64,000 nt of DNA from Salinicola avicenniae (lineage in GTDB: Bacteria; Pseudomonadota; Gammaproteobacteria; Pseudomonadales; Halomonadaceae): positions 434,001 through 498,000 of the forward strand of contig NZ_JAKQZC010000004.1 of NCBI RefSeq assembly GCF_023736115.1, written 5' to 3'. Positions 6,203 to 63,127 of this stretch are shown in pieces (the first letter of the stretch is position 1; each line of letters starts with the position of its first letter). A program made the position numbers and the translations under genes. The notes under the pieces were generated by a model. The model ran no database searches, was not told the origin of the DNA, and worked only from the letters and a program-made list of their open reading frames with translations.

Positions 6203-7498
6203 ATGAAGGTTCTGATCATTGGGGGTGGCGGGCGTGAGCATGCGCTGGCCTGGAAAGCGGCGCAGTCGGCGCAGGTCGAAACCGTCTTCGTGGCACCCGG
6301 CAACGCCGGCACCGCGCGGGAGCCGAAACTGACCAACGTCGCCATCGATGCCATGGATATCGACGGGCTGATCGCCTTTGCCCGGGACAATGCGGTTGCG
6401 CTGACCATCGTCGGTCCGGAGGCGCCGCTGGTGGCCGGTGTGGTCGACGCCTTCACGCAGGCGGGCCTGGCGATCTTCGGACCGACGGCCGGGGCGGCGC
6501 AGCTGGAAGGCTCGAAGGCGTTCACCAAGGATTTCCTGGCGCGCCATGCCATTCCAACGGCGGCTTATCAGACGTTCGGTGCGGTATCGCCCGCGCTGGC
6601 GTATCTGGCCGAACAGGGCGCGCCGATCGTGATCAAGGCCGATGGTCTCGCTGCCGGCAAGGGCGTCGTGGTGGCGATGACCGAGGCGGAAGCGGAAGCG
6701 GCGATTCGCGATATGCTCGAGGACAACGCCTTCGGTGACGCCGGTGCGCGGGTCGTGATCGAGGAGTATCTCGAAGGCGAGGAGGCGAGCTTCATTGTCA
6801 TGGTCGACGGCGAGCACGTGCTGCCGATGGCGACCAGTCAGGACCACAAGCGAGCGGGCGACGGCGATACCGGCCCGAATACCGGCGGCATGGGAGCCTA
6901 CTCGCCGGCACCGGTGGTCACGCCCGAGGTGGACCGTCGTATCATGGACGAAGTCATCCGGCCGACGGTCGCCGGCATGGCGACAGAGGGGCATCCCTAT
7001 ACCGGTTTCCTCTATGCAGGGTTGATGATCGATGCCGACGGCGCGCCGAAGGTGATCGAATACAATTGCCGTTTCGGTGATCCGGAAACACAGCCGATCC
7101 TGATGCGTCTGCAGTCGGATCTGGTGACGCTTTGTCAGGCGGCGCTGGCGCAGCGGCTCGATCAGGTCGAGTGTGCGTGGGATCCGCGCGCGGCAGTTGG
7201 CGTGGTGCTCGCTGCCGAGGGGTATCCGGGCAGCTATCGCAAGGGTGACGAAATCACCGGGCTGGATGTTGCCGAGACCGCCGGCTGCAAGGTTTTCCAT
7301 GCCGGCACGCAGACCGACGACGATGGTCGCGTCGTCACCAGCGGCGGGCGTGTGCTATGTGTGACCGCTCTCGGCGAGACGGTCGGTGCCGCCGCCGCGC
7401 AGGCCTACGTCGGTGTCGAAGCGGTGCGCTGGGCTGGCGCCGGCTATCGGCGCGACATTGCCCATCGCGCGATCGCTCGCGAGCGTCGCGACGACTGA
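6203..7498 (+). CDS. purD: Phosphoribosylamine-glycine ligase PurD
   Basis: PurD joins glycine to 5-phosphoribosylamine with ATP in de novo purine synthesis. The 431-residue protein begins MKVLIIGGGGREHAL, the typical N-terminal nucleotide-fold motif, has the ATP-grasp block IKADGLAAGKGVVVA around residue 145 and GGMGAYSPAP near residue 230, and a complete C-terminal domain. The ATG follows AGAAGG at good spacing. In many gammaproteobacteria purD follows purH; here it stands alone, downstream of the divergent rsmE. Confidence 0.96.
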   Translation: MKVLIIGGGGREHALAWKAAQSAQVETVFVAPGNAGTAREPKLTNVAIDAMDIDGLIAFARDNAVALTIVGPEAPLVAGVVDAFTQAGLAIFGPTAGAAQLEGSKAFTKDFLARHAIPTAAYQTFGAVSPALAYLAEQGAPIVIKADGLAAGKGVVVAMTEAEAEAAIRDMLEDNAFGDAGARVVIEEYLEGEEASFIVMVDGEHVLPMATSQDHKRAGDGDTGPNTGGMGAYSPAPVVTPEVDRRIMDEVIRPTVAGMATEGHPYTGFLYAGLMIDADGAPKVIEYNCRFGDPETQPILMRLQSDLVTLCQAALAQRLDQVECAWDPRAAVGVVLAAEGYPGSYRKGDEITGLDVAETAGCKVFHAGTQTDDDGRVVTSGGRVLCVTALGETVGAAAAQAYVGVEAVRWAGAGYRRDIAHRAIARERRDD

Positions 7499-7629
7499 GC
7501 GGCCGCGCCGGCGCGGACTTTAACGACAAGGAACTGCCGCCATGCAGCGAATGACGCCATACGCAGGGGCGCCGAGGCCCGTCTTTTTCAGGAAAGGCAC
7601 GCCGGCAAGTGACGACGGGGAGACGCGAC

Positions 7630-8502
7630 ATGTCGCGTGAGTACCCGATCATCGCGGTGACGGGGTCGTCGGGGGCCGGCACGACCACGGTCAAGCGCAC
7701 CTTCGAGCGCATGTTCGCCCGCGAGGACGTGCACGCGGCGTTCATCGACGGCGACGCTTTTCACCGCTATTCGCGTGCCGAGCTGGCGCAGATTCTGCAG
7801 ACGGAGCCGGAGCGCAAGGCCGCGCTGTCGCATTTTTCGGTCGATGCCAACCAGCTCGACCGCCTCGATACCTTGTTCCAGGAGTACGGTGAGAGCGGCA
7901 AGGGGACCTACCGCCACTACATTCATGCCGAGGACAAACGCATGATCGAGGCGGGCTGGCAGGTCGGGACCTTCACCGACTGGCAGCCGATTCCCAGTGG
8001 CACGGATCTGATGCTCTATGAGGGCCTGCATGGCGGGCTGGTGACGCACGAGGTGGATATCGCCCGCCACGTCGACATGCTGATCGGCGTGGCGCCGACC
8101 ATCAATCTGGAATGGCTGCAGAAGATCGATCGCGACACCAAGCTGCGCGGCTACTCCCAGGAGGCGGTGATCGACACCATCCTGGGGCGCATGCAGGACT
8201 ACGTGCGCTATATCCAGCCGCAACTCTCGCGCACTCATATCAACTTTCAGCGCGTGCCGACAGTGGATACGTCGAACCCGTTCGAGCTGCAGGACGTGCC
8301 CAACGACGGGGAGTCGTTCGTCGTGATCCGCTTCCGTGATCCGGGGGCGGTCGACTTTCCCTCTCTCGTGACGATGATCCATGATGCCTTCATGAGCCGG
8401 CCCAACACCCTGGTCGTCCCCGGCGCGCGACTGTCGCTGGCGATGGATCTGATCCTGGCACCGCAGGTGCGGCAGCTACTCGCTCAGCGACGATTTCGCT
8501 GA
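7630..8502 (+). CDS. Phosphoribulokinase-family protein (PrkB type, non-Calvin)
   Basis: The 290-residue protein has the P-loop GSSGAGTTT near residue 10 and the phosphoribulokinase/uridine kinase fold blocks ([45 protein letters not shown]). Size and motifs match E. coli PrkB (289 residues). No RuBisCO or other Calvin-cycle gene is nearby, so carbon fixation is unlikely; the true role of this heterotroph family is not settled. I chose the ATG after GGGGAGACGCGAC over an upstream start 21 bases earlier. Confidence 0.85.
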
Positions 8503-8507
8503 CGCTT

Positions 8508-8526
8508 GCCCGTTCGGGCGCTTTTT
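8508..8526 (+). terminator. Putative rho-independent terminator after the phosphoribulokinase gene
   Basis: A short stem, GCCCG paired with CGGGC over a two-base apex, is followed by GC and five T residues immediately after the stop codon. The stem is short, so strength is uncertain. Confidence 0.45.
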
Positions 8527-8582
8527 ACCGTTCGACGCGCGTGGCCGGGCGCCACGCGCGCACCCCATCGAGGAGGGACCCC

Positions 8583-8927
8583 ATGGAACCGACGCTGTTC
8601 AGCAAGATCATCGATCGCGAGATCCCCGCCGATATCGTCTACGAGGACGACCAGGTCCTGGCGTTCAACGACATTAACCCGCAGGCGCCCACCCACATCC
8701 TGATCATCCCGAAAAAGCCGATTGCCACCCTGAACGATATCGAGGAAGCCGATCTCGCGCTGATCGGGCGGCTGCAGTACACCGCGGCCCGCCTGGCCAA
8801 GGAGCTGGGATTCGCCGATGACGGCTACCGCGTGGTGATGAACTGCAACGAACAGGGGGGGCAGACGGTCTATCATATCCACATGCACCTGCTCGGCGGG
8901 CGGGCCATGCAGTGGCCGCCGGGCTGA
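8583..8927 (+). CDS. hinT: HIT-family purine nucleoside phosphoramidase HinT
   Basis: HinT hydrolyses adenosine 5'-monophosphoramidates. The 114-residue product has the N-terminal [15 protein letters not shown] block and the C-terminal histidine triad [11 protein letters not shown], the defining motif, with the central His as the nucleophile. Length is typical. A strong GAGGAGGGA ribosome site precedes the ATG. It is followed 44 bases later by coq7 on the same strand. Confidence 0.93.
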
Positions 8928-8971
8928 CACGCCCCGCGACCGATCCTTCACGCCGTTGCCAGGAGGCCTTC

Positions 8972-9613
8972 ATGGACCGCAGGATGACCCACGCCGACAA
9001 CCTGATCCATCAGTTCGACACCGTGCTGCGCACGCTCGTGCCCAAGGCGGCGCAGCCAAGCCGGCCCTCGCCCGCCAATGCGCAGCCCGAGGGGGCGATG
9101 GATGAAGAGCAGCGCCGCCACGTGGCGGGCCTGATGCGCATCAATCATACCGGCGAGGTGTGCGCCCAGGCGCTCTACCAAGGCCAGGGCATGGCCGCCA
9201 AGCTGACCGAAACGCGAGCCAAGATGGAAGAGGCGGCGGCCGAGGAGATCGATCACCTGGCGTGGTGCGATCAGCGCCTGCAGGAGCTCGACGACCGCAC
9301 CAGCTACCTCAACCCGATGTTCTATGCCGCGTCCTTCGGTCTCGGCGCGCTCGCCGGTGCCGTCGGTGACCGTGTCAGCCTCGGCTTCGTGGCCGCGACC
9401 GAGGAGCAGGTCGGCCATCATCTGGACGCCCATCTGAAGAAGCTGCCTATCGATGACAAACGCTCGCGCGCCGTGCTGGAGCAGATGCGCATCGACGAAG
9501 CGCAGCATGAGCAGTGGGCGCTGGAGTCCGGCGGTCAGCGCTTTCCGCTGCCGGTGAAATGGGGCATGCGTCTGGTCTCGAAGGTGATGACCAAGAGCGT
9601 CTATCGGCTCTGA
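8972..9613 (+). CDS. coq7: Coq7-type 2-polyprenyl-3-methyl-6-methoxy-1,4-benzoquinone monooxygenase
   Basis: This is a di-iron hydroxylase for a late ring-hydroxylation step in ubiquinone synthesis. The 213-residue protein shows the ferritin-like four-helix ligand pattern: E in [32 protein letters not shown] and [10 protein letters not shown]. Two short hydrophobic stretches fit the monotopic membrane association known for the family. The ATG follows AGGAGG. It takes the place of the flavin enzyme UbiF used by E. coli and is common in Pseudomonas and Halomonas relatives. Confidence 0.93.
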
Positions 9614-51150: not shown

Positions 51151-52371
51151 TCAGCTTGTCATGCCGCCGGGGCGCGGCTGCGCGATCGCGTGGCGTGCCT
51201 GCAAGGCTGCTGCGCAATGGGTCAGGCGCCGGCAGGCCTCCTGCAGCCGGCTGGCCTCCACGGTCAGGCTGAGCCGGACGAAACCGGCCGCCGAGGCGCC
51301 GAAGGCATCGCCGGCAAGGACCGAAACGCCATAGGCGTCGAGCAGGTGGTCGGCGAAGGCCTCGGCGCTGAGTCCGGTGGCACGGATATCGACCATCATG
51401 AACATGCCGGCGGCGGGCGACAGCGCTGTCACCACGTCGCTGTCGGCCAGGGCGTCCAGGACCGTATCCCGTCGCTGACGATAGGTGTCGAGCATGTTGT
51501 CCAGGACCGCGGGGGGCTCGCGAAGGGCGGCGATGGCCGCATCCTGGATGAAGCCGGGGCTGCCGTAGAGCATGCAGAGCGCGAGATTGACGAGATGTGC
51601 GGCTAGCGCCGTCGGGCCGACCACCCAGCCCAGTCGCCAGCCGGTCATGGCGTGAGACTTCGACAGGCTGCTGACGATCACGGTGCGCTCGCGCATGCCG
51701 GGCAGCGCATCCGGGCTCCGATGCTCGCCATCGAAGATCAGGTCGGCATAGACGGCATCGACGATCAGCCAGAGGTCGTGTGTGCGGCAGAGCGCGGCGA
51801 TCGCTTCCCAGGTAGCCGGGGACAGACACTGCCCGGTTGGATTGTGCGGGCTGTTGAGCAAAATCGCCCGTGTCCGCGGTGTGATCGCTGCGGCGAGTCT
51901 CTCGGCCTCCGGCTGAAAGTCGGCCTCGGCGGCAAGCGGTACCCAGACCGGCTCGGCACCGGTTGCTCGGATCACGGCATCATAGGTGACGTAGGCCGGC
52001 TCGGGCACGATCACTTCGTCGCCGGTCTCGAGCAGGCACTGTGCCGTGGCATAGAGGCCGCACTGGGCGCCGGCCGTGACCATGATCTGCTCGGCGTCGG
52101 TCTCTGCATGGCCGCCGCGTTCTCGGTGGTGGCGGGCGATCGCTTCGCGCAGTAGCGGCTTGCCCTGCACTTCCGCGTAGTGCGTGGCGCCACCGCGCAG
52201 GCTGGCGATAGCGGTCTCGACGATCGGAGCTGGCGTCTCGAAATCCGGATCGCCTACCGAGAGAAGGATCACGTCGTCGCCTCGTGCCAAGCGCTCGCGG
52301 GCACGGAAGTGGATGTTCCAGGCGCTGGCGCCTTTGCCGGCGATTCGCTGCGTCAGTGACGAGTAGTGCAT
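51151..52371 (-). CDS. Class I/II pyridoxal phosphate-dependent aminotransferase
   Basis: The 406-residue fold-type I enzyme has SVGDPDFETPAPI at the N-terminus, NSPHNPTGQCLSPA near residue 175, the aspartate in WLIVDAVYADL and the PLP lysine in VSSLSKSHAMTGWRLGW. This matches the aspartate/alanine-type aminotransferase subgroup; the substrate is not decided. Position directly before argC might suggest a link to arginine or glutamate metabolism, but this is weak. Start at MHYSSLTQRI after GGAG. Confidence 0.87.
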   Translation of the reverse strand: MHYSSLTQRIAGKGASAWNIHFRARERLARGDDVILLSVGDPDFETPAPIVETAIASLRGGATHYAEVQGKPLLREAIARHHRERGGHAETDAEQIMVTAGAQCGLYATAQCLLETGDEVIVPEPAYVTYDAVIRATGAEPVWVPLAAEADFQPEAERLAAAITPRTRAILLNSPHNPTGQCLSPATWEAIAALCRTHDLWLIVDAVYADLIFDGEHRSPDALPGMRERTVIVSSLSKSHAMTGWRLGWVVGPTALAAHLVNLALCMLYGSPGFIQDAAIAALREPPAVLDNMLDTYRQRRDTVLDALADSDVVTALSPAAGMFMMVDIRATGLSAEAFADHLLDAYGVSVLAGDAFGASAAGFVRLSLTVEASRLQEACRRLTHCAAALQARHAIAQPRPGGMTS

Positions 52372-52510
52372 GAGGACTCCGGTCGTGATCGGCGAATAAG
52401 AGAAGGCGGTAAACGGCACCGACAGGCTATCGCGCCCTTGCCGTTGGCAACAGCGCAAGGGGGCTCTGAGTCGCCAATGGCGATGGCGCGTGACGCGATC
52501 CGCGGGGTCT

Positions 52511-52545
52511 CCTTAAACTCAAGCCTTAAACTAAAGTTTTATAGT
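52511..52545 (+). promoter_or_regulatory. AT-rich repeats before the CoA-transferase gene
   Basis: CCTTAAACT occurs twice (52511-52519 and 52524-52532), 13 bases apart, followed by TTTTATAGTT. In this GC-rich setting it probably marks the promoter or a regulator site; boxes cannot be assigned. Confidence 0.35.
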
Positions 52546-52619
52546 TGAAGGCTCGAGATCGTCGGAGGATGGATTCGACAAACGTCGATGTGTCGCGACG
52601 TAAGAGCGATGAGGAATTC

Positions 52620-54167
52620 ATGAACGAGGTTGCACAGCAGCGCTGCCAGCTGCCGGACTGGCGCGAGCGGCTGATGAGCGCAGACGAAGCGGCGGCATTG
52701 ATCGAAGACGGCATGGTCGTCGGCATGAGCGGATTCACGCGCGCTGGCGAAGCCAAGGATGTACCGCTGGCGTTGGCGCGTCGCGCCGAGCGTGACCCGC
52801 TCCAGATCACGCTGATGACCGGCGCTTCGCTGGGCAACGATATCGATGGCATTCTGAGCGACGCCCATGTGCTGGCGAGGCGCATGCCGTTTCAGGTCGA
52901 CCGCCACCTGCGCGCTGCGATCAATCGCGGCGAAGTGATGTTCATTGACCAGCATCTTTCCGAAACGGTGGAGCTGTTGCGCAACAAGCAGCTTGGCAAG
53001 CTCGATGTCGCGGTGATCGAGGCTGCTGCCATCACGGCCGAGGGGGGCATCGTGCCGACGGCCTCGGTGGGCAACTCGACCAGCTTTGCGATTCTCGCCG
53101 ACAAGGTGATCGTGGAGCTCAACCTCGCGTCGCCGGAAGCGCTGATCGGACTGCACGATATCTACGTGCCGGGCATGCGCCCCGACCGCCAGCCGATCCC
53201 GGTGACGGCGCCGGATTCGCGCATCGGCACGCCCTATATTCCGGTCGACCCGGACAAGATCGCGGCAATCGTGTTGACCCACGGTCACGACAGCCCCTCC
53301 ACGGTGACGCCGCCCAACGAGGCGACGCGGGATATCGCCCGGCATCTGATCGGTTTCTTCGAGCACGAGGTCGAGCAGGGGCGGCTGACGTCGTCGCTGC
53401 TGCCGCTGCAGGCCGGGATCGGCAGCATGGCCAACGCGGTCATGCATGGGCTGATGGAGGGCCCGTTCGAGAATCTGACGATGTACTCCGAGGTGCTGCA
53501 GGACAGTACCTTCGATCTACTCGACAGCGGCAAGATGATCTTCGCCTCGGGCAGCTCGATCACGCTCTCGTCGAGCTGTGGTCAGCGCGTCTGGAACCAT
53601 TTGGAGCGCTACCGCGACCGCGTGGTGCTGCGACCGCAAGAGCTCTCCAACCAGCCCGGCATTGTCCGCCGGCTGGGCGTCATCGCGATCAATACCGCAC
53701 TGGAGTTCGATATCTACGGCAACGTCAACTCCACGCATGTCAACGGCACGCACATGATGAACGGTATCGGTGGCTCGGGGGATTTCGCTCGCAACGGCCA
53801 GCTGTCGGTCTTTATTACCACCGCCACGGCGAAGGCGGGCGATCTCTCCAGCGTGGTGCCGTTTGTCAGCCATGTCGATCACAGCGAACACGACGTCGAT
53901 ATTCTGGTCACCGAGCACGGCCTGGCCGATCTGCGTGGCTTGGCGCCCAGGGAACGAGCGCGGCGGATCATCGATTGCTGTGCCGATCCCTACTACCGGC
54001 CGGCGCTGGCGGCATACTTCGAGGCCGCCAGCGAGCGCGGCGGCCACACCCCGCACTGTCTGGAACAGGCGCTCTCCTGGCATATCACCGCCCGTCGCGA
54101 CGGTTCGATGCGCAGCGTCGTCGAGGCGACGCCGACGCCAGCGCCCGTGGCGGACGACCACGTCTGA
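52620..54167 (+). CDS. Acetyl-CoA hydrolase/transferase family protein
   Basis: The 515-residue protein belongs to the family of succinyl-CoA:acetate CoA-transferases and related enzymes. It has SGFTRAGEAKDVPLAL near the start, GGIVPTASVGNSTSF, and the catalytic Glu in INTALEFDIYGNVNSTHVNG near residue 360. Acetate released by DoeB and PoxB could be activated by such an enzyme, but that is inference. I prefer the ATG at 52620 (GAGG seven bases upstream); an upstream ATG at 52569 overlaps its own ribosome site and would add 17 residues. Confidence 0.85.
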   Translation: MNEVAQQRCQLPDWRERLMSADEAAALIEDGMVVGMSGFTRAGEAKDVPLALARRAERDPLQITLMTGASLGNDIDGILSDAHVLARRMPFQVDRHLRAAINRGEVMFIDQHLSETVELLRNKQLGKLDVAVIEAAAITAEGGIVPTASVGNSTSFAILADKVIVELNLASPEALIGLHDIYVPGMRPDRQPIPVTAPDSRIGTPYIPVDPDKIAAIVLTHGHDSPSTVTPPNEATRDIARHLIGFFEHEVEQGRLTSSLLPLQAGIGSMANAVMHGLMEGPFENLTMYSEVLQDSTFDLLDSGKMIFASGSSITLSSSCGQRVWNHLERYRDRVVLRPQELSNQPGIVRRLGVIAINTALEFDIYGNVNSTHVNGTHMMNGIGGSGDFARNGQLSVFITTATAKAGDLSSVVPFVSHVDHSEHDVDILVTEHGLADLRGLAPRERARRIIDCCADPYYRPALAAYFEAASERGGHTPHCLEQALSWHITARRDGSMRSVVEATPTPAPVADDHV

Positions 54168-54270: not shown

Positions 54271-55227
54271 CTACTCTTCGAGACTGGATTCGACGGCGGC
54301 CAGGCCGGGTTCGCCGTCGCGGGTGGTGATGCCCTCGAGGAAGGTCGCGACACGCTCGGGATGGTTCTGCAGCCACTCCCGTGCGACCTCGTCGGCGTCG
54401 CGCTCCTGGCGGCTGTAGCCGTCGATGAACGCGCTCTGCTCGTCGGCGGTCAGCACGAACTGATCCAGTAGCTGGCGCAGGTTCGGGTTGGCGTCGGCGA
54501 AGGCCTTGTTGACGATGGTGCGCACGTCGCTGGCCCCGTTGTCCGGACCGTAGACCGCCTCGGGGTCGTCGAGAATGCGCATGTCGTAGGCCGGTGCCAT
54601 CCAGTGCGGTGTCCAGCCGTACCAGACGATCCAGCGCTCGGCGTCAAAGGCAGCATTGACTTCGGACAGCATGCCCGGGGTCGAGGATTCGAGAATTTGC
54701 CAGTCGCCCAGGCCGTAGGTGTCGTTGTCGTGAGCGTCGTTGATGAACTCGCTGACGGTGGCGCCGGATTCGATCGAGTAGAAGCGTCCACCGAACTGGT
54801 CGCGGTGCGCATCGAGGTCCTCTGCACTGTGTATGCCGGCATCATAGACGTAGCCGGGTACGGCGAAGCCCATCTGCGCGCCGGTGACGTTGTTGCCGAG
54901 ATCCACGACCTTGCCGCTGCTGACGGCCTGGTCGTAGCTCTCCTGCTGGGCCGGCATCCAGCCGCCGAGGAAAATATCGCTATCGCCGGTCTGCAGGGTC
55001 TGGTAGCCCACGGTGCTGCTCAGTTCCTGCACCTCGCTCGAGTAGCCGAGCGCGTCGAGCATCTGGCTGAAGAGTTCGGTCTTGACGGTCACGCCCGGCC
55101 AGGGGGGCACGATGAAGTTGGCGCTGTCCGCTTCGTCCTGTGGTTGGGACTGAGCCTGGACAGCGATCGGGGCAGCGATGGTCAGGGGCAGCAGGGTCGC
55201 TGCCAGGAGCGCTTTGCGCAGTGTCAT
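54271..55227 (-). CDS. Periplasmic substrate-binding protein for quaternary amines (OpuAC family)
   Basis: The 318-residue protein has a signal peptide ending near VQAQS and the OpuAC/ProX fold used for glycine betaine, choline and carnitine. Tryptophans that would cage a trimethylammonium group are visible in PPWPGV, GGWMPAQ and IVWYGWTPHWM. No ABC permease or ATPase gene is adjacent, so it must use a transporter encoded elsewhere, as known for the Pseudomonas CbcWV system with its separate binding proteins CaiX, BetX and CbcX. It is the third gene of the minus-strand operon after tmpA and tmpB, 40 bases downstream. Carnitine and trimethylammonioethylphosphonate are both plausible ligands. 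Confidence 0.87.
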   Translation of the reverse strand: MTLRKALLAATLLPLTIAAPIAVQAQSQPQDEADSANFIVPPWPGVTVKTELFSQMLDALGYSSEVQELSSTVGYQTLQTGDSDIFLGGWMPAQQESYDQAVSSGKVVDLGNNVTGAQMGFAVPGYVYDAGIHSAEDLDAHRDQFGGRFYSIESGATVSEFINDAHDNDTYGLGDWQILESSTPGMLSEVNAAFDAERWIVWYGWTPHWMAPAYDMRILDDPEAVYGPDNGASDVRTIVNKAFADANPNLRQLLDQFVLTADEQSAFIDGYSRQERDADEVAREWLQNHPERVATFLEGITTRDGEPGLAAVESSLEE

Positions 55228-55267
55228 GGAGACTCCTTCTCTTATTGTCGGCGTTCGGGGCGTGATA

Positions 55268-55846
55268 TCAGGCTCCCTGAACGCTGGGCAGCCCGGCGCC
55301 ATCGAAGGGCGGGCGTGCGAGTACCCGCTCGAGCATGGGCATGAAGTGCTCGAGCGGCTGGGTATCGTAGTCGGGATCGAACGAGACCTGGTCCCATTCG
55401 TCGCAGAAACGCACGGTGCGCGCGTACGCGGGATGATCGCGATACGCCTCCCGGGCGTGGCGATCCAGGCCGTAGAAGTGGCGGTAATGATAGCCCTGAA
55501 ACAGCTCGTGATGTCGCACCATCCACAGATTCAGTGGATCGACGAAAGGTTCGAGGATCGCGGCGGCTATCTCGGCGTGATTGTCCGGTGCCAGATCGTC
55601 GCCGATATCGTGCAGCAGGGCGCAGACGATGGTTTCCTCGTCGGCGCCGGCGCGTTCGGCGCGGGTCGCGGTCTGCAGGCAGTGCGTGTAGCGGTCTACA
55701 GGGTAGCCGTGGGTATCGCCTTCGAGCCGTTTGAGGTGATTGACCACGCGAGGGACGACGCCCTCGCGATAGTCGCGGAAGTGGCCGTCGATTTCTCGCC
55801 AGTCGTCGGACGTGCTGTGATCGAAGCGGGTGAAGGTGGCGCTCAT
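55268..55846 (-). CDS. tmpB: HD-domain diiron oxygenase, TmpB-like
   Basis: The 192-residue HD-fold protein carries the six-ligand pattern of mixed-valent diiron oxygenases (MIOX, PhnZ, TmpB): H55 in DRYTHCLQTA, H79-D80 in LLHDIGDD, H90, H112 or H113 in VRHHELFQGYHY, and an Asp in CDEWDQVSFD. TmpB splits the C-P bond of (1-hydroxy-2-trimethylammonio)ethylphosphonate to glycine betaine and phosphate. Its start overlaps the stop of the dioxygenase gene upstream (ATGA), so the two are coupled, as in the described tmpAB pair. A plain nucleotide phosphohydrolase is the alternative, but the partner gene argues against it. Confidence 0.72.
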   Translation of the reverse strand: MSATFTRFDHSTSDDWREIDGHFRDYREGVVPRVVNHLKRLEGDTHGYPVDRYTHCLQTATRAERAGADEETIVCALLHDIGDDLAPDNHAEIAAAILEPFVDPLNLWMVRHHELFQGYHYRHFYGLDRHAREAYRDHPAYARTVRFCDEWDQVSFDPDYDTQPLEHFMPMLERVLARPPFDGAGLPSVQGA

Positions 55847-56964
55847 GCGAAAGCCTCCTGCCGGGCGGTAGTGGAACGGCGCAGCACCTCGCGGCGGCTG
55901 GCAGTCGTATCACGGTCAACGTAGCCCTGGCGCAGATGGCGCACGCCCTGGGTCAGGTGGAACGCCGTGCGCCCATGCAGCAGCCGGTAGTTGTCCATGA
56001 TCAGCATCTCGCCCGGCGCGAGCTTGGGCGTCAGTGTCAGCGCCGGCGACGTGATCAGCGCAAAGAACTGCTGCCGCGCGGCGTAGTAGCGCTCCAGGCT
56101 TTCGGGTGGCAGGGCCGGGATGCGTTCAGTGCGATTGTTGTAGCGAACGCGTACCACATTACCGGCGCTGTCGAGCTCGATCAGCGGCCCCTCGCTCTCC
56201 AGATGGGCGCTGTCGTCAACGTAGCGGAAGCGGGTCGGCGTGCGGGTCAGGCAGTCGAAGGCCGCCGGGTCTTGCTGGCGTAGCCGCTCGGCAGCCATGA
56301 AACCGTCGGCGAGGGTACTGTCGCCGCCGCTGTCGGCGTTGCTTAGGCAGTGCAGCCAGATATAGCCGGGGATCGGGTCGCGGTAAGGGTTGTCGGTATG
56401 CGGTTCCAGCCCGCGCTGGGTCATGGTCAGGTCGAACGCCTCGGCGATCGACTTGACGTCGGCAATGCCGCCCCAGTTGGTGCGTCGCAGCGGCCCCAGA
56501 CGGCTGACCAGCGGCAGCATGCCTTCCTCCTCGAGCGGCACGCCACGTACCTTGACAAAGCCGTAGCGCTCGAGCGATTCCAGCATGTCTCGCAGTGCCT
56601 CGTCGTCAGCGACGGCGGCCTCGAAGTCGGCTTCCGGCAGGGTCTCGAGCGAGGCATCCCAGTGCTGGTGCGCGGGTGTCGATTCCGCGGTGATCTCCAG
56701 CGCCTCCAGCGTAAAGCGCGCCTCGTGCCCATCGCTGAACGTTACCGCCAGATGGTGGCCGTCGCAGCCGGCGTCGAGAAGGTGCAAATCCAGGGGTAGC
56801 GCGGCCGCTTCGATCAGGCGCTGCCCCGTGCGTGGATCCAGGGTTTCCGGGTCCGGGGCGCGTTCCCGCAGCCACAGGGCCTGCAGGTGGTGTTCTCGGT
56901 TGTCGTGGACCAGGCGCAGCTGGCGGCCTTCGGTACCGGGGATAATCTCGACGAACGTGTCCAT
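55843..56964 (-). CDS. tmpA: Fe(II)/2-oxoglutarate dioxygenase, TmpA-like (2-trimethylammonioethylphosphonate dioxygenase)
   Basis: The 373-residue enzyme is of the gamma-butyrobetaine hydroxylase family: an N-terminal DUF971-like domain (to about residue 95) and a TauD-like jellyroll with iron ligands H189 and D191 (PHTDNPY) and H330 (YRLLHGRTAF). TmpA hydroxylates 2-(trimethylammonio)ethylphosphonate next to the phosphonate. The call TmpA rather than gamma-butyrobetaine hydroxylase rests on the coupled HD-oxygenase gene and on a second, separate family member at 60794-62047 inside the carnitine genes. The N-terminal zinc-binding cysteines of mammalian BBOX are absent. It starts the operon and is divergent from the GlxA-type regulator. 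Confidence 0.68.
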   Translation of the reverse strand: MDTFVEIIPGTEGRQLRLVHDNREHHLQALWLRERAPDPETLDPRTGQRLIEAAALPLDLHLLDAGCDGHHLAVTFSDGHEARFTLEALEITAESTPAHQHWDASLETLPEADFEAAVADDEALRDMLESLERYGFVKVRGVPLEEEGMLPLVSRLGPLRRTNWGGIADVKSIAEAFDLTMTQRGLEPHTDNPYRDPIPGYIWLHCLSNADSGGDSTLADGFMAAERLRQQDPAAFDCLTRTPTRFRYVDDSAHLESEGPLIELDSAGNVVRVRYNNRTERIPALPPESLERYYAARQQFFALITSPALTLTPKLAPGEMLIMDNYRLLHGRTAFHLTQGVRHLRQGYVDRDTTASRREVLRRSTTARQEAFA

Positions 56965-58151: not shown

Positions 58152-58252
58152 CGATCCGTCACTCCCCACAATGAGGCCATCGTCACGTCCCGAGCGGACG
58201 TGTTCCCCTGTCGCTCGTCGTGCAGTCGGCGAGCTCGGATAGAGAGAGCCTC

Positions 58253-59134
58253 ATGAATCGCGACGTCATTCTGACCTGCGCCGTCACTGGTGCCGGCGAT
58301 ACCGCCGGCAAGCACCCGGATTTGCCGATCACGCCTCAGCAGATTGCCGAGAGCGCCCTCGATGCCGCCCGCGCTGGTGCCAGCATCGTTCACCTGCACG
58401 TACGCGATCCGGAGACCGGTGGCATCAGTCACTCGACGGATCATTTCCGTGAAGTCGTCGAACGCATTCGTGAATCTGACGTGGATGCCGTGATCAACAT
58501 CACCGCCGGCGGCGGCGGTGACCTGTTCCCGGAAATCCGTGACGGCGTGATTCACGGTCTGGAAGGCACCGATCTACAGACGGCCGCCGAGCGCCACCAC
58601 CCCGTGGGCGAGCTCTTGCCGGAGCTCTGCACGCTGGATTGCGGCAGCCTCAACTTCGGCGACATGGTCTATCTGAACACCGCGGACTGGCTGCGCGAGC
58701 ATGCACGTTTGATCCAGCAGGCCGGGGTCAAGCCGGAGCTCGAGTGCTTCGATCTGGGGCATGTCTGGTTCGCGCGTCAGCTGGTCGAAGAGGGGCTGAT
58801 CGACGGCGATCCGCTGTTCCAGCTCTGCCTGGGCATTCCGTGGGGCGCTGAAGCCGACACCGAAACCATGCTGGCGATGCGCAACAAGCTGCCGGCCAAC
58901 GCCCTCTGGTCGGCGTTCGGCATCGGCCGTCAGCAATTCCCGATGGCCGCTCAGTCGATGATCCTGGGCGGGCACATGCGTGTGGGCCTGGAGGATAACC
59001 TCTATCTGAGCAAGGGCGTGTTCGCGACCAACGCGCAGCTGGTTGAGCGTGCCGTGACCATCGCCGAGAACCTCGGCGGCAAGGTGCAGACCCCGCAGCA
59101 GACCCGGGAAACCCTCAAGCTGCGTCAGCCCTGA
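58253..59134 (+). CDS. cdhC: Beta-keto acid cleavage enzyme (BKACE), 3-dehydrocarnitine type
   Basis: BKACE enzymes react a beta-keto acid with acetyl-CoA to give acetoacetate and a new CoA ester; with dehydrocarnitine the products are acetoacetate and betainyl-CoA. The 293-residue TIM barrel shows the zinc-binding HLHVRDPETG near residue 47, INITAGGGGDLF, TLDCGSLNFGD and CFDLGHVWFA. Its neighbours, carnitine dehydrogenase and a small thioesterase in the same direction, fit the caiX-cdhCAB type of carnitine operon. Start after AGAGAGAG. Confidence 0.88.
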   Translation: MNRDVILTCAVTGAGDTAGKHPDLPITPQQIAESALDAARAGASIVHLHVRDPETGGISHSTDHFREVVERIRESDVDAVINITAGGGGDLFPEIRDGVIHGLEGTDLQTAAERHHPVGELLPELCTLDCGSLNFGDMVYLNTADWLREHARLIQQAGVKPELECFDLGHVWFARQLVEEGLIDGDPLFQLCLGIPWGAEADTETMLAMRNKLPANALWSAFGIGRQQFPMAAQSMILGGHMRVGLEDNLYLSKGVFATNAQLVERAVTIAENLGGKVQTPQQTRETLKLRQP

Positions 59135-59232
59135 CAGGGCACAAGAACGCCCCCGCGACGCCTGAAACGGCGTCGCCGTGAGGCGTGCCGCCATCTCGAA
59201 CTCCCCCTTTTCTAACGTTTACCGAGGTCTCG

Positions 59233-60204
59233 ATGAGTACCCCCCAACTTCCCCGCCGGATCGCCGTCATCGGCACTGGCGTCATCGGTAATGGCTGGAT
59301 TGCCCGCGCCCTGGCGGCCGGCTGTCGAGTCACCGCTTTCGACCCCGATCCGCAGGCGCCTGCGCGCACCCGCGCCTTCGTTGAGCGTGCCTGGCCGGCG
59401 CTTGAGCGTCTGGGCCTGGCCGAAGGTGCCGATCCCAGCGCGATCACCTTTGTCGACTCGCTGGCCGCCGCGGTCGAGGGTGCCGAGCTGATCCAGGAGA
59501 ACGTGCCCGAGCGCCTCGAGATCAAGCACGCAACGCTGGCCGAGCTAGATGCGCTGGCCGCGCCGGAGGTGGTAATCGGCTCATCGACCTCCGGGATCAA
59601 GCCGAGCGATCTGCAGCGCGTCTGCAAGACTGCGCCGGGCCGCGTGATCGTGGCGCACCCGTTCAACCCGGTCTATCTGCTGCCGCTGGTGGAGCTGGTC
59701 GGCGGTGAGCACAGCGCCCCCGAGACGCTCGAACGCGCGCGCGGGCAGTATGCGGCGCTGGGCATGCGCCCGCTGGTGGTGCGGCGCGAGATCGAGGGTC
59801 ATGTGGCGGATCGTCTGATGGAAGCGCTATGGCGTGAGGCGCTGCACCTGGTCAATGACGGCGTGGCGACTACCGAAGAGGTCGATGCCGCCGTGGTCTA
59901 CGGCGCCGGTCTGCGCTGGTCGCTGATGGGGACTTTTCTGACGTTCCATCTCGCCGGTGGCGATGGCGGCATGCGCCACATGCTGCATCAGTTCGGCCCG
60001 GCGCTGAAGCTGCCGTGGACCAAACTGGAAGCGCCGGAGCTGACCGACGAGTTGATCGATCGTGTCGCCGATGGCTGTGAGTACCAGGCGGCCGGCCGCA
60101 GCGTCGCCGAGCTGGAGACGCGCCGAGACGCGTTCCTTACCGAGCTGCTCGAACTGACCCAGAAGTACTGGCCGGAAGCCGAAGGGCTCGACGGGCGGAT
60201 TTGA
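59233..60204 (+). CDS. cdhA: L-carnitine 3-dehydrogenase
   Basis: This NAD-dependent enzyme oxidises carnitine to 3-dehydrocarnitine. The 323-residue protein of the 3-hydroxyacyl-CoA dehydrogenase family has the Rossmann motif VIGTGVIGNGWIARAL, the catalytic His in VIVAHPFNPVYLLPLVE near residue 145 and GHVADRLMEALWREALHLV. Size agrees with Pseudomonas CdhA (321). The start chosen, MSTPQLPRR, follows CCGAGG. It sits between BKACE and the thioesterase. Confidence 0.92.
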   Translation: MSTPQLPRRIAVIGTGVIGNGWIARALAAGCRVTAFDPDPQAPARTRAFVERAWPALERLGLAEGADPSAITFVDSLAAAVEGAELIQENVPERLEIKHATLAELDALAAPEVVIGSSTSGIKPSDLQRVCKTAPGRVIVAHPFNPVYLLPLVELVGGEHSAPETLERARGQYAALGMRPLVVRREIEGHVADRLMEALWREALHLVNDGVATTEEVDAAVVYGAGLRWSLMGTFLTFHLAGGDGGMRHMLHQFGPALKLPWTKLEAPELTDELIDRVADGCEYQAAGRSVAELETRRDAFLTELLELTQKYWPEAEGLDGRI

Positions 60205-60221
60205 ACAAAGGAACGGATCTG

Positions 60222-60680
60222 ATGACAGCAACGATGCTGACCACCGAGGTCGCCGAAGCGTGGGTCGATTACAACGGTCATATGAACGATGCCGAGTACG
60301 CTCGCGTCTTCTCGCTGGCGGTCGAGGCGCTGATGGATCGCCTCGGTCTCGACGAGGCGGGGCGCACCGCGCACGGCTACACGATCTACACCCTGGAGAC
60401 GCATCTCTGCTATCGCCAGGAGGCGCATCGCGGCGAACAGCTCGACGTGACGTGCCTGCTCCTCGACAGCGATGCCAAGCGGCTGCATGTGCTCTTCACC
60501 CTGTGCAACGCTGCCGGCGAGGTGCTCGCGACCAGCGAGCAGATGCTGATGGGTATCGATGTCGAGAGCGGCCGGCCGGCGCCGTTTCCTGCCCCGGTCG
60601 TCACCGGTATCGAGGTGTTGCCTCGGGCCGGTGACGAGTGGCCTTCAGCGGCCGGTCGCCGGATCGGCATTCGGCGCTGA
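60222..60680 (+). CDS. cdhB: Hot-dog thioesterase of carnitine degradation (betainyl-CoA thioesterase)
   Basis: The 152-residue protein has the 4HBT-type motif VDYNGHMNDAEYARVFS with the catalytic Asp region and a typical hot-dog fold length. In carnitine operons this gene releases glycine betaine from betainyl-CoA. In some bacteria it is fused to the dehydrogenase; here it is separate, 17 bases after it. I start at MTATMLTTEV after AAAGGA; a TTG 21 bases upstream overlaps the previous stop and is less likely. Confidence 0.88.
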   Translation: MTATMLTTEVAEAWVDYNGHMNDAEYARVFSLAVEALMDRLGLDEAGRTAHGYTIYTLETHLCYRQEAHRGEQLDVTCLLLDSDAKRLHVLFTLCNAAGEVLATSEQMLMGIDVESGRPAPFPAPVVTGIEVLPRAGDEWPSAAGRRIGIRR

Positions 60681-60793: not shown

Positions 60794-62047
60794 TCAGGAC
60801 GAGAGCGTCGCCCGGCGCTTGGCGCGCCATAGCATACGTAGCCGCGATCGGGCTTCGTCGCGCTCCAGATAGCAACCCTGGAGCCAGCGGCTGCCGCCCT
60901 GGCTGACGTCGAAGGCATCGCGGGCGTGCAGCAGGCGCCGGTTGTCGAAGATCACCATATCGCCCGGCGCATAGCTGAACCTAAGTGCGAATTCGGGCTC
61001 GCGCAGCAGCCGCTGCAGCGCCATCAGTGCCGCGTAGGCCGGCTCGATATCGTCGAACGGCGCCATCAGCGGTCCGCGCAGGAAGTCGGCGATGCGTACC
61101 TCATTGAAATCACCGTTGGCGTCCAGCTTGATCATCGGATCGAACCAGACATGGTCACTGGTACGCGAGGTATTGGCGTAGCACCAGTGTACGCGGGTGA
61201 GCGTCGCGAAATGCGTGGGGTGGCGTTCGCGCAGCGCAGCGGCCACGGCAAACCCGTCCATCATCACGGCGTCGCCGCCAACCGTGTCGTTCTCCAGGCA
61301 GTGAAGCAGTTGCAGGCCCGGCTGATACTCTCGTGTCGGCAGGTCGACGTGGGGTGGCAGCGCGATCGAGGTGTAGGCGTTGGAGTCCGGATCGGGCTTG
61401 GCGCGCACGTCGAACAGGTGGCCAAAATTGGTCGGTCGCGGCGGTCCGATCCGCCGCGCGATGTTATCGAGACTGCCGGGCTGGGTCGGGAGACCGCGCA
61501 GGCGGACCAGGCCGTCGCGGAAGAGCGTCTCCAGCGCCTGTTCCAGCAGCGGGTCGACATCGGCGACATCGCTCTCTTTGTCCATCCAGCCGGCGGCATC
61601 GAGCGTGGCGGGTTCCTGGCGATCAGCGCCATGCCAAATTTGGGGCGCGACCAGCGGTGCATCGTGAACGGGCGAGTTGTCGTAGTCGTGTGCGCGCAGC
61701 CAGCCGGGATGGAACGAGAGCGTGCGGTTCTCCGGTGCAAACGTCAGCGTCACTGCGCCGTTGGTCTCAAGTCGTGCGTCGGTCAGCGTCGGCCAGTCGG
61801 CGAGGCACGACAGGTCGAGGATTCGCTCGCGGGTCGCCGGGTTGACGGTCGTGTCGTCCGCGGCGTTCTCGCGCAGCCACACGCTGTGGTAGCGGCTGAT
61901 GCGGCCATCCTGCCAGGTCAGCGTCAATTGATGCCGGTCATGACGCACGTCGGCGATGTCGACGTCGACCGGCCAGGCATCGTAGTCCGGCGTCGCGGGC
62001 AGGTCGGCCGCGTCGCGTTCGAGGCGGGCGGTGGAGGGGGCGTTCAT
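60794..62047 (-). CDS. Gamma-butyrobetaine hydroxylase (Fe(II)/2-oxoglutarate dioxygenase)
   Basis: The enzyme makes L-carnitine from gamma-butyrobetaine. The 417-residue protein has the N-terminal DUF971-like domain and the jellyroll with iron ligands H233 and D235 (PPHVDLPTRE) and H374 (RRLLHARDAF). The block LPTREYQPGLQLLHCLEN is closer to bacterial gamma-butyrobetaine hydroxylases than that of the TmpA-like paralogue. It is convergent with the carnitine genes and followed upstream by a second GlxA-type regulator, so it can feed them. The start MNAPSTARLER follows CAGGAG. Confidence 0.85.
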   Translation of the reverse strand: MNAPSTARLERDAADLPATPDYDAWPVDVDIADVRHDRHQLTLTWQDGRISRYHSVWLRENAADDTTVNPATRERILDLSCLADWPTLTDARLETNGAVTLTFAPENRTLSFHPGWLRAHDYDNSPVHDAPLVAPQIWHGADRQEPATLDAAGWMDKESDVADVDPLLEQALETLFRDGLVRLRGLPTQPGSLDNIARRIGPPRPTNFGHLFDVRAKPDPDSNAYTSIALPPHVDLPTREYQPGLQLLHCLENDTVGGDAVMMDGFAVAAALRERHPTHFATLTRVHWCYANTSRTSDHVWFDPMIKLDANGDFNEVRIADFLRGPLMAPFDDIEPAYAALMALQRLLREPEFALRFSYAPGDMVIFDNRRLLHARDAFDVSQGGSRWLQGCYLERDEARSRLRMLWRAKRRATLSS

Positions 62048-62140
62048 GCGGAGCTCCTGGCTGACGGATATCGAAAAGGTGATGTCAGCGTGGCTCAAGC
62101 CCGAGCTGGAGATTTGATACCAATCGACGGATTGTTGCGT

Positions 62141-63127
62141 TTATTGGCCATCGATCGGTCGTGCCGACAGGCGGCGCGCGGCGCTAGGCGAGTGGCCGAA
62201 GTGCTGGCGATAGGCACGCGAGAAGCTGGAGGCGGAGGTAAAGCCGCAGCCGAGCCCGATGCTGAGCACGTCGCGGTCGGTCTCTTCTAGCAGGTGACGG
62301 GCGCGATCCAGGCGCAGTTCGAGATAATGATCGCGCGGACGCTTGCCCAGTTCCTGCAGGAAGAGACGCTGCAGCTGGCGCGGTGACAGGCCGATGCGTG
62401 CGGCCAGCGTGGCCATGCTGAGGGGCTGTTCGAGGTGTTGCTCCATCAGGGCGACGGCGTCGACCAGCGGGCGGTGGTGCGTGCCCAGGCGCCGCGTCAG
62501 TGGCAGGCGCTGCGGGTCCTGGCGTGGGCGAAGCCGAGCGTGGATAAGCTGTTCGGCTACATCGTCGGCCAGCGCCTGGCCATGGCGCTGGGCGATCAGG
62601 CTGAGCGTCATCTCCATGGCCGCGGCGCCGCCGGCACAGGTGAAGCGACGCGTGTCGATCTCGAACAGCGACTCGACCGCGTCCAGATCGGGAAAGCGTT
62701 CGCGAAAGGCGGGCAGACTTTCCCAGTGCAGTGTCAGACGGTGGCCGGCGAGCAGGCCGGCCTCGGCCAGCAGCAGCGGGCCGGTGTCGATACCGCCGAG
62801 GAGGCAACCGGCGCTTGCCTGACGATGAAGCCACTGCGTCAGCCGGCGCGAGAGCTCGCGGGGCGGTTCGAATCCGGCGCAGACCGCGACGGTGGGCAGG
62901 TTGGGGGCATCGGCCAGGCCGCAGTCGACCAGTAACGTCATGTCGTTACTGGCCGTGACCGGTTGCCCATCTACGCTGATCAAGGTCCAGCGATAGAGCG
63001 CCTGCCCTGCCAGCCGGTTGGCGATACGCAACGGCTCCACGGCGGAGAAGAACGCCATCATCGAGAAGCGCGGTACGAGCAGAAAACCCACGGGCTCCGG
63101 CAGCGGACTGGTGTAATCGACACGCAT
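62141..63127 (-). CDS. Second GlxA-type AraC-family regulator
   Basis: The 328-residue protein has the same layout as the regulator at 57060-58064: a DJ-1/PfpI-like N-terminal domain (FLLVPRFSMMAFFSAVEPLRIANR) and a C-terminal AraC domain (LAARIGLSPRQLQRLFLQEL, LGCGFTSASSFSRAYRQHFG). It lies directly upstream of the hydroxylase gene on the same strand and is divergent from the haloacid dehalogenase-like gene, so either may be its target. Effectors of such regulators are usually quaternary amines or amino acids. Confidence 0.86.
   Translation of the reverse strand: MRVDYTSPLPEPVGFLLVPRFSMMAFFSAVEPLRIANRLAGQALYRWTLISVDGQPVTASNDMTLLVDCGLADAPNLPTVAVCAGFEPPRELSRRLTQWLHRQASAGCLLGGIDTGPLLLAEAGLLAGHRLTLHWESLPAFRERFPDLDAVESLFEIDTRRFTCAGGAAAMEMTLSLIAQRHGQALADDVAEQLIHARLRPRQDPQRLPLTRRLGTHHRPLVDAVALMEQHLEQPLSMATLAARIGLSPRQLQRLFLQELGKRPRDHYLELRLDRARHLLEETDRDVLSIGLGCGFTSASSFSRAYRQHFGHSPSAARRLSARPIDGQ

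Follow-up and report, generated by a model that had tools for sequence, protein, structure and literature searches.

Introduction

A 2020 review names, in its available text, three HD oxygenases, i.e., MIOX (myo-inositol oxygenase), PhnZ, and TmpB (PMC8177086), to which the accessible part of a 2023 review adds PhoF, a fungal fusion, and a PhnZ from Gimesia (PMC10574752), and all of the enzymes named in these portions, other than MIOX, act on phosphonates. The present study deals with two overlapping genes that resemble such a system, coding for an Fe/2-oxoglutarate dioxygenase (P0002) and an HD-domain protein (P0001), in a stretch of 64,000 nucleotides from Salinicola avicenniae (Halomonadaceae; contig NZ_JAKQZC010000004.1, positions 434,001 to 498,000), which is referred to here, at its full length, as the window. 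A preliminary description of this DNA had assigned the pair, together with the gene of a betaine-type binding protein (P0004), the reaction of TmpA and TmpB. The analysis suggests instead, with a rough probability of 0.6, that the pair serves the catabolism of quaternary ammonium compounds, in which P0002 would hydroxylate a cationic acid and P0001 would cleave a C–C bond, and not a phosphonate.

The closest described system is TmpA/TmpB of Leisingera caerulea (PDB 6npb, 6npa), which has overlapping or adjoining dioxygenase and HD genes and the same HD fold and ligands, but from which the Salinicola pair departs in that P0001 belongs to another HD clade and lacks the YxxE Glu, the pocket Lys, and the LQGG segment, while P0002 has an N187D change and an altered cation cage, and genes of carnitine and amino-acid catabolism surround the pair. 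PhnY/PhnZ (PDB 4mlm, 4n71) shares with it the HD fold, the six ligands, and HxLQ, as well as the PhyH-type partner of some members of the new family, although P0001 lacks the same pocket residues as against TmpB and is 18–21% identical in the structural alignments. MIOX is an HD diiron oxygenase that cuts a C–C bond, as is proposed here for P0001 from its gene context, but it is a weak structural match (E 0.1) and was not found by sequence searches with P0001.

Two pathways are also comparable in their gene content. The arginine transaminase route (AruH/AruI type) consists of an aminotransferase, a thiamine pyrophosphate (TPP)-dependent 2-oxo-acid decarboxylase, and an aldehyde dehydrogenase, and the HD operons of relatives of Salinicola follow the same enzyme logic with a paralogous TPP enzyme, except that they join it to quaternary-ammonium uptake, dioxygenase, and HD genes. 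The caiX-cdhCAB-hocS locus of P. aeruginosa, with its regulator CdhR, has a binding protein that works with a permease from another locus, a divergent AraC regulator, and genes that lead from carnitine to glycine betaine, as does the window in outline, but the available text of its source mentions no dioxygenase/HD pair (PMC5806209).

The HD Protein P0001

The two genes lie on the minus strand and share four bases (ATGA), in which the TGA stop of P0002 overlaps the ATG start of P0001, which lies inside P0002, just as the preliminary description had read them. That description also took P0001 for an HD protein of the MIOX/PhnZ/TmpB type with six metal ligands, leaving the fifth between H112 and H113. 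In an alignment of 33 rows, H55, H79, D80, H90, H113, and D152 are invariant, so that the set stands, with H113, not H112, as the fifth ligand, and the Gln of HxLQ (Q58) is invariant as well. This is the H...HD...H...H...D set of the HD mixed-valent diiron oxygenases, and each of the ligands is retained by 81–83 of the 83 new-clade rows of a larger alignment, the remainder being gaps or single changes.

The AlphaFold model of P0001 (AF2, 33-row alignment) has a mean pLDDT of 92.1, and when it was searched against the PDB with Foldseek, all 10 of the matches at E ≤ 0.001 were PhnZ or TmpB, with MIOX coming next; PhnZ superposes on the model with a TM-score of 0.64–0.67. The proposed type of HD protein was thus borne out, and the nearest solved relatives of the pair are TmpA and TmpB. 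On the other hand, P0001 reaches only 47.2 bits against the curated TmpB model NF049941, which has a cut-off of 300.

The residues of the pocket were compared in 106 rows, i.e., 83 of the new clade, 22 of the TmpB type, and PhnZ. The Glu of YxxE is present in PhnZ and in all 22 TmpB-type rows (its Tyr in 20 of the 22), whereas the new clade has Tyr or Phe in 76/83 and P0001 itself reads THGY. The His of HDxGH (22/22 TmpB-type rows) gives way to Asp in 73 of the 83 new-clade rows, while the Lys of HVAAK, four residues after the fifth ligand His, is found in PhnZ and in 22/22 TmpB-type rows and is replaced by Gln in 80 of the 83 (Q117 in P0001). The S..S/LQGG segment is lost altogether, given that all 83 new-clade rows have a gap at LQGG, and 82 and 83 of them at the two Ser columns. 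In the PhnZ structures, the HVAAK Lys and the Ser residues of this segment reportedly hold the phosphonate. The YxxE loop gates the substrate in TmpB and PhnZ, according to the available text of the 2020 review (PMC8177086). P0001 agrees with TmpB and PhnZ in fold and ligands but not at the residues of the phosphonate pocket.

A quick tree of the 106-row set separates the 83 rows of the new clade from PhnZ plus TmpB with an SH-aLRT of 100; SH-aLRT is the only support calculated for this tree, and its long branches were flagged, including those of L107 and L127 relative to the TmpB-type rows. Judged by these comparisons, P0001 is not TmpB but an HD protein of the PhnZ/TmpB fold in a separate clade, and it would represent a new variant of the HD diiron oxygenases, with a predicted oxygenase activity.

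The Dioxygenase P0002 and the Sister Clade of TmpA

P0002 had been described as a gamma-butyrobetaine hydroxylase (GBBH)-like dioxygenase with HTD...H ligands, and this holds, given that it is of the TauD/GBBH type (Pfam TauD, 163.6 bits) and that the ligands H189-x-D191 and H330 can be read off the alignment. It scores 431.8 against the curated NCBIfam TmpA model NF049936 (cut-off 400) and 271.9 against the GBBH model TIGR02409, below the cut-off of 414.75. In 398 genomes drawn from the phylum, 16 matches pass the TmpA cut-off, of which 14 adjoin a TmpB-type gene and two, in the window genome and one congener, adjoin a new HD gene; as it passes both clades, this cut-off does not separate TmpA from its sister clade.

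In a tree of 80 dioxygenases, which omits duplicate loci (a list of 23 names), the rows with a TmpB partner make up a single clade, whose sister consists of the HTDNPYR-type rows partnered with the new HD proteins. With 21 near-duplicates removed (59 rows), the bootstrap/SH-aLRT values are 97/85 for the TmpB-partnered clade, 100/98 for the sister clade of P0002, and 99/99 for the two joined. P0002 therefore falls outside the TmpB-partnered TmpA clade, so that the earlier assignment fails in this respect, although it is sister to TmpA and does not group with GBBH. Eight other dioxygenases that adjoin new-clade HD genes, of the HNDF type, are placed elsewhere in the tree. For one sister-clade row (L153), no HD gene lies closer than 700 bp to the dioxygenase, which adjoins BKACE, carnitine dehydrogenase, thioesterase, and GbdR genes (L189) in a genome of another family (G574) that carries an HD gene elsewhere.

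The phosphonate contacts of TmpA are given, in the available part of its structural source, as N187, N287, and R288 (PMC9296572). The first of these columns holds Asn in 19/19 TmpB-partnered rows and Asp in 21/21 sister-clade rows, and Arg288 is kept in all 40 rows of both clades, so that P0002 has D, N, and R at the three places (D178 for N187 and R278 for R288) and departs from the contact set. The cation cage differs too. W164, A168, M181, and F335 of P0002 correspond to Y177, W181, Y194, and Y366 of human BBOX (hBBOX), of which Tyr177, Trp181, and Tyr194 are taken here to form the cage; at these three places, Trp, Ala, and Met are found in all 16 rows of the P0002 subclade, and Phe, Phe, and Tyr in a second subclade of four rows. 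This may be read as a pocket that continues to accommodate an acid group next to the carbon that is hydroxylated, but with a greater length or a shape suited to a different cation, and P0002 probably works like TmpA, even though it lies outside the TmpB-partnered clade. One Halomonadaceae genome (G678) contains both a pair of the P0002/P0001 type (L190) and a genuine TmpA/TmpB pair (L191).

Spread and Partners of the New HD Family

The new HD clade is present in 59 of the 398 genomes, and in 81 loci the same-strand partner that adjoins the HD gene is of the TauD/GBBH type in 28, the PhyH type in 9, and the IPNS type in 2, counts that cover only dioxygenases similar to the queries used and that come from an enriched set, in which five loci were fetched for their P0002 homologue and near-duplicates (e.g., L128 and L006) were kept. 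On the HD tree, the partner label changes twice for TmpA-like, four times for PhyH, twice for HNDF-type, and once for IPNS dioxygenases, and such repeated pairing with different Fe/2-oxoglutarate families is what would be expected of a hydroxylate-then-cleave module. The notion that the two genes always occur together was rejected in an even-draw subset of 35 loci (L100–L134), picked across genera from 62 matches in an even draw of the phylum, where 29 have no adjacent dioxygenase of the queried kinds.

At SAR324 loci, no homologue of the TPP enzyme or the aminotransferase was seen beside the HD–PhyH genes at the scores used. A class II aldolase/adducin gene adjoins the HD gene, or lies about one gene away, in L014, L015, L017, L018, L019, L038, L101, L106, L120, and L132.

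Carnitine and Amino-Acid Catabolism Genes around the Pair

The BKACE, L-carnitine dehydrogenase, and thioesterase genes of the window (Table 1) look like a gene set that leads from carnitine to glycine betaine. These genes, and the order P0002–P0001–P0004, are kept in all 10 of the Salinicola loci fetched (L002–L011), which argues that the arrangement is not due to chance; 3' of the binding protein, nine of the ten have the aminotransferase and all ten have argC.

Carnitine dehydrogenase or BKACE genes are found near 18 of the 81 new-HD loci (12 of the 18 Halomonadaceae ones), versus none of 17 TmpB-type loci, and MTTB, RACo, or sarcosine-oxidase genes near 7/81, versus 1/17. In L016, L027, L029, L030, and L042, the new-clade HD gene lies near genes for a RACo-type corrinoid activase and/or an MTTB methyltransferase and a sarcosine oxidase. 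In two loci, L121 (about 6900–9600) and L129 (about 6850–9600), the order is BKACE–HD–carnitine dehydrogenase, which places the HD gene inside a carnitine operon. The dehydrogenase of L121 matches the fused model over residues 1–345 of 495 only, and is followed by acyl-CoA dehydrogenase-like and CoA-ligase-like genes; L121 had hinted that the HD protein might replace the thioesterase, which was rejected as a general rule, given that a separate thioesterase is present in Salinicola and that the HD gene of L014 adjoins a thioesterase homologue.

In 201 Halomonadaceae genomes, close copies of the HD gene (at least 71% identical) occur at 85 places in 81 genomes, and at no fewer than 56 of the 74 places outside the genus of the window, a TPP decarboxylase-type gene lies directly 3' of it, which is a lower bound, drawn from a selection of the matches listed and with a split copy in G676 scored as absent. 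Four congeners have a strong TPP match elsewhere in the genome, and two of these four have the HD gene. Of the 81 genomes with the close HD copy, 80 have a match to carnitine dehydrogenase, compared with 56 of the 120 others, which include seven with only a 46–51% copy (Fisher p 2e-17, a value that ignores kinship), and the match lies within 20 kb of the HD copy in 42 of the 81.

Seven of the TPP loci were studied in detail (L012 and L013, which are nearly identical, L190, L192, L193, L230, and L231). In all seven, an aminotransferase and a His/LAO-type ABC transporter come next in the operon, while an OpuAC protein is present in four, as is an aldehyde dehydrogenase (L192 and L193 stop short of its position, and it is missing there in L230); in L190, L230, and L231, the carnitine genes and a homologue of P0003, the second GBBH-type dioxygenase of the window, are in the same cluster. 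In L192 and L190, the TPP enzyme exceeds the cut-off of 500 of the 5-guanidino-2-oxopentanoate decarboxylase model (798.9 and 772.4, respectively). A second TPP copy (63–65% identical in L227–L229) is found at a different site, together with the gene of an aldehyde dehydrogenase and, in L227 (the locus scanned), an agmatinase-family gene, a neighbourhood that we take to be the layout of an arginine transaminase route.

The Binding Protein P0004

P0004 probably starts at the ATG at 55227, behind AGAAGGAG, and not at 55302. It matches the OpuAC Pfam family at 197.8 bits, which supports the earlier view of an OpuAC-type, quaternary-ammonium binding protein, and scores 267.2 against the ChoX model TIGR03414, below its cut-off of 379.05. 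No permease gene was found among the neighbouring genes scanned. The preliminary description regarded the betaine-type protein as a special pairing that linked phosphorus scavenging with osmoprotectant supply, but in L194, where TmpA and TmpB are genuine, ProV, a permease, and a binding protein of the choline/betaine type are encoded close by, as is MTTB, so that the OpuAC protein was discarded as the mark of a TmpAB variant. Matches to PhnC, PhnD, PhnE, PhnJ, and PhnF are absent, at the thresholds used, from all 81 new-HD loci and equally from the 17 TmpB-type loci, and the lack of phosphonate transport genes was dropped as an argument against a phosphonate role for this reason. No support was found for the link to phosphorus scavenging. 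The genome of the window has nine OpuAC matches, one of which adjoins a third GBBH-type dioxygenase with an hBBOX-like NN motif, outside the window (G000:C6:286456-288510; L095, L197).

Proposed Function and Alternative Explanations

Given that P0001 lacks the phosphonate grip and that the pair is set among carnitine and aminotransferase genes, the trimming of carbon from a trimethylated compound is the more probable function. P0002 would hydroxylate a trimethylammonio acid, or a similar cationic acid, at the carbon next to the acid group, and P0001 would cut the bond between the hydroxylated carbon and the acid group, as PhnZ and TmpB do, with a leaving group other than phosphonate. The group removed would most likely be a carboxylate, as CO2 (R-CH(OH)-COO- + O2 -> R-COO- + CO2 + H2O). 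The diiron oxygenase activity, the C–C cleavage, and all of the substrates are predictions, and we know of no HD oxygenase that performs the oxidative decarboxylation of an alpha-hydroxy acid.

The basic-amino-acid transporter, transaminase, 2-oxo-acid decarboxylase, and aldehyde dehydrogenase of the relatives would convert a basic amino acid to an omega-cationic acid one carbon shorter, and given the quaternary-ammonium binding protein and the carnitine genes alongside, the amino acid would most simply be trimethyllysine and the acid delta-valerobetaine. In this scheme, trimethyllysine would be transaminated, decarboxylated by the TPP enzyme, and oxidised to delta-valerobetaine, which P0002 and P0001 would shorten by one carbon to gamma-butyrobetaine, a loss that fits alpha-hydroxylation by the former and oxidative cleavage by the latter. 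P0003 would then convert gamma-butyrobetaine to L-carnitine, and the dehydrogenase, BKACE, and thioesterase would take L-carnitine to glycine betaine. Such a trimethyllysine–carnitine–glycine betaine pathway in the Halomonadaceae, unrelated to that of eukaryotes and with an HD enzyme that decarboxylates an alpha-hydroxy acid, is a tentative extension, with the odds against it. As the decarboxylase is not at the Salinicola locus, either its step falls to an enzyme encoded elsewhere or the pair there acts on another, related compound.

Searches of a paper library on the HD family, TmpA/TmpB, and carnitine brought up no paper plainly devoted to the new HD clade, and those on trimethyllysine and valerobetaine showed no bacterial pathway of the proposed kind in titles or abstract openings. 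According to a 2021 abstract, prokaryotes had not been seen to synthesise carnitine (PMC8085414), while delta-valerobetaine is made from trimethyllysine by gut bacteria, and a bacterial route between the two that differs from the one proposed here (DavB/DavA) is known, as stated in the accessible text of PMC11773067.

A number of points weigh against the pair acting in quaternary-ammonium catabolism. The functions of P0002 and P0001 are predictions from gene content and sequence, and the co-occurrence counts ignore relatedness. The altered cage (W/A/M) of P0002 leaves the trimethylammonium head less than certain, and it is not obvious that an acid group would be favoured by the Asp at 187. In the even-draw subset, just 6 of the 35 loci have an adjacent dioxygenase of the queried types and 3 have carnitine dehydrogenase or BKACE, and a subclade of 22 HD rows has no adjacent dioxygenase, which suggests that the role of the family may be wider. 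The absence of PhnCDE is uninformative, as the TmpB-type loci lack it too. Finally, no TPP gene lies beside the pair at any of 11 places in the genus (L168–L177 and L002–L011 have none, and the best match in the genome of the window is 31%), nor is the LAO transporter in the window, so that the trimethyllysine route is incomplete at the Salinicola locus.

Of the alternatives, it is conceivable, though unlikely, that carnitine itself is the substrate, which P0002 would convert to 2-hydroxycarnitine and the HD enzyme, acting in the manner of MIOX on the vicinal diol, would cleave to glycine betaine and glyoxylate, either as a bypass of the dehydrogenase or as a route for D-carnitine. The carnitine genes that adjoin the pair, the position of the HD gene between BKACE and carnitine dehydrogenase in L121 and L129, and the Asp at 187, which could bind a hydroxyl, would all be accommodated, but the aminotransferase, 2-oxo-acid decarboxylase, LAO transporter, and aldehyde dehydrogenase of the relatives' operon would be left unexplained, and L121 and L129 have no adjacent dioxygenase of the kinds queried.

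A functional TmpA/TmpB pair, which would convert trimethylammonioethylphosphonate to glycine betaine and phosphate, is quite improbable, even though P0002 exceeds the TmpA cut-off, the nearest PDB matches are TmpA and TmpB, and Arg288 and Asn287 are kept. The earlier claim of this reaction is at odds with the score of P0001, far under the TmpB cut-off, its loss of the YxxE Glu, the Lys, and the LQGG segment, and the N187D change in P0002; a genuine pair coexists in G678, and the TmpA cut-off passes two clades.

Just as improbable is an arginine-derived guanidino acid, such as 4-guanidinobutyrate, as the compound shortened by the pair, with the quaternary-ammonium neighbours being incidental. 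The decarboxylase model passed by the TPP enzymes of L192 and L190, the LAO-type transporter, and the altered cage of P0002 are consistent with it, but the OpuAC protein, the GbdR/CdhR-type regulators, the GBBH-type P0003, and the carnitine genes of the same clusters are not, and it is the separate TPP copy that has arginine-route neighbours. It is very unlikely that P0001 is a nucleotidase-like protein beside a dioxygenase by accident, for while most known HD proteins are phosphohydrolases, according to the available text of PMC8177086, and many members of the family have no adjacent dioxygenase, PhnZ and TmpB are its only structural matches at E ≤ 0.001, its dinuclear ligand set and HxLQ are complete, and the HD gene is paired with three dioxygenase families.

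Other Features of the Window

The features of the locus are collected in Table 1. The aminotransferase of the window reached no cut-off among the 25 families listed out of 50. Between it and the binding protein lies, on the opposite strand, the gene of a ScpC-type (succinyl-CoA:acetate) CoA-transferase (52545–54167), an arrangement found only in the window and L002 among eleven Salinicola-type loci compared. The P0003 clade has Ser at the place of hBBOX N191 and Ala at that of N292 in 18/18 rows, so that its acid contacts are unlike those of human BBOX.

Table 1. Genes of the P0002/P0001 locus, with positions in the window.
Feature	Position	Strand	Basis and remarks
P0002, Fe/2-oxoglutarate dioxygenase, TmpA sister clade	55843..56964	-	TauD Pfam, NF049936, tree, residue columns
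P0001, HD-domain protein, separate clade of PhnZ/TmpB-type HD proteins	55268..55846	-	Profile, alignment, AF2/Foldseek, tree
P0004, OpuAC/ChoX-type periplasmic binding protein	54271..55227	-	OpuAC Pfam, TIGR03414
Class I aminotransferase, operon member in relatives	51151..52458	-	Start not fixed: open reading frame starts at TTG, ATG at 52371
GbdR/CdhR-type AraC regulator, divergent from P0002	57024..58064	+	GbdR model 226, below cut-off 480; likely start ATG 57060
BKACE, probable 3-dehydrocarnitine cleavage enzyme	58220..59134	+	PF05853, 337.6 bits; substrate suggested by context
L-carnitine dehydrogenase	59185..60204	+	NF005471 412, just below cut-off 414; open reading frame starts at GTG, ATG at 59233
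Thioesterase, probable betainyl-CoA thioesterase	60201..60680	+	Profile and Pfam matches
P0003, second GBBH-type dioxygenase, in a clade with order-level relatives (f3)	60794..62098	-	TIGR02409 (gamma-butyrobetaine dioxygenase) 302.8, below cut-off 414.75
Second GbdR/CdhR-type AraC regulator	62141..63127	-	321.8, below cut-off 480

Implications

Because P0002 exceeds the cut-off of the curated TmpA model, current annotation would label the pair as phosphonate-degrading, while its role is more likely to be in carbon metabolism. With partners from three families of dioxygenases, a further HD clade would broaden the chemistry of this fold. If the trimethyllysine version is true, bacteria could have their own way of making carnitine out of trimethyllysine, and delta-valerobetaine would gain a fate.

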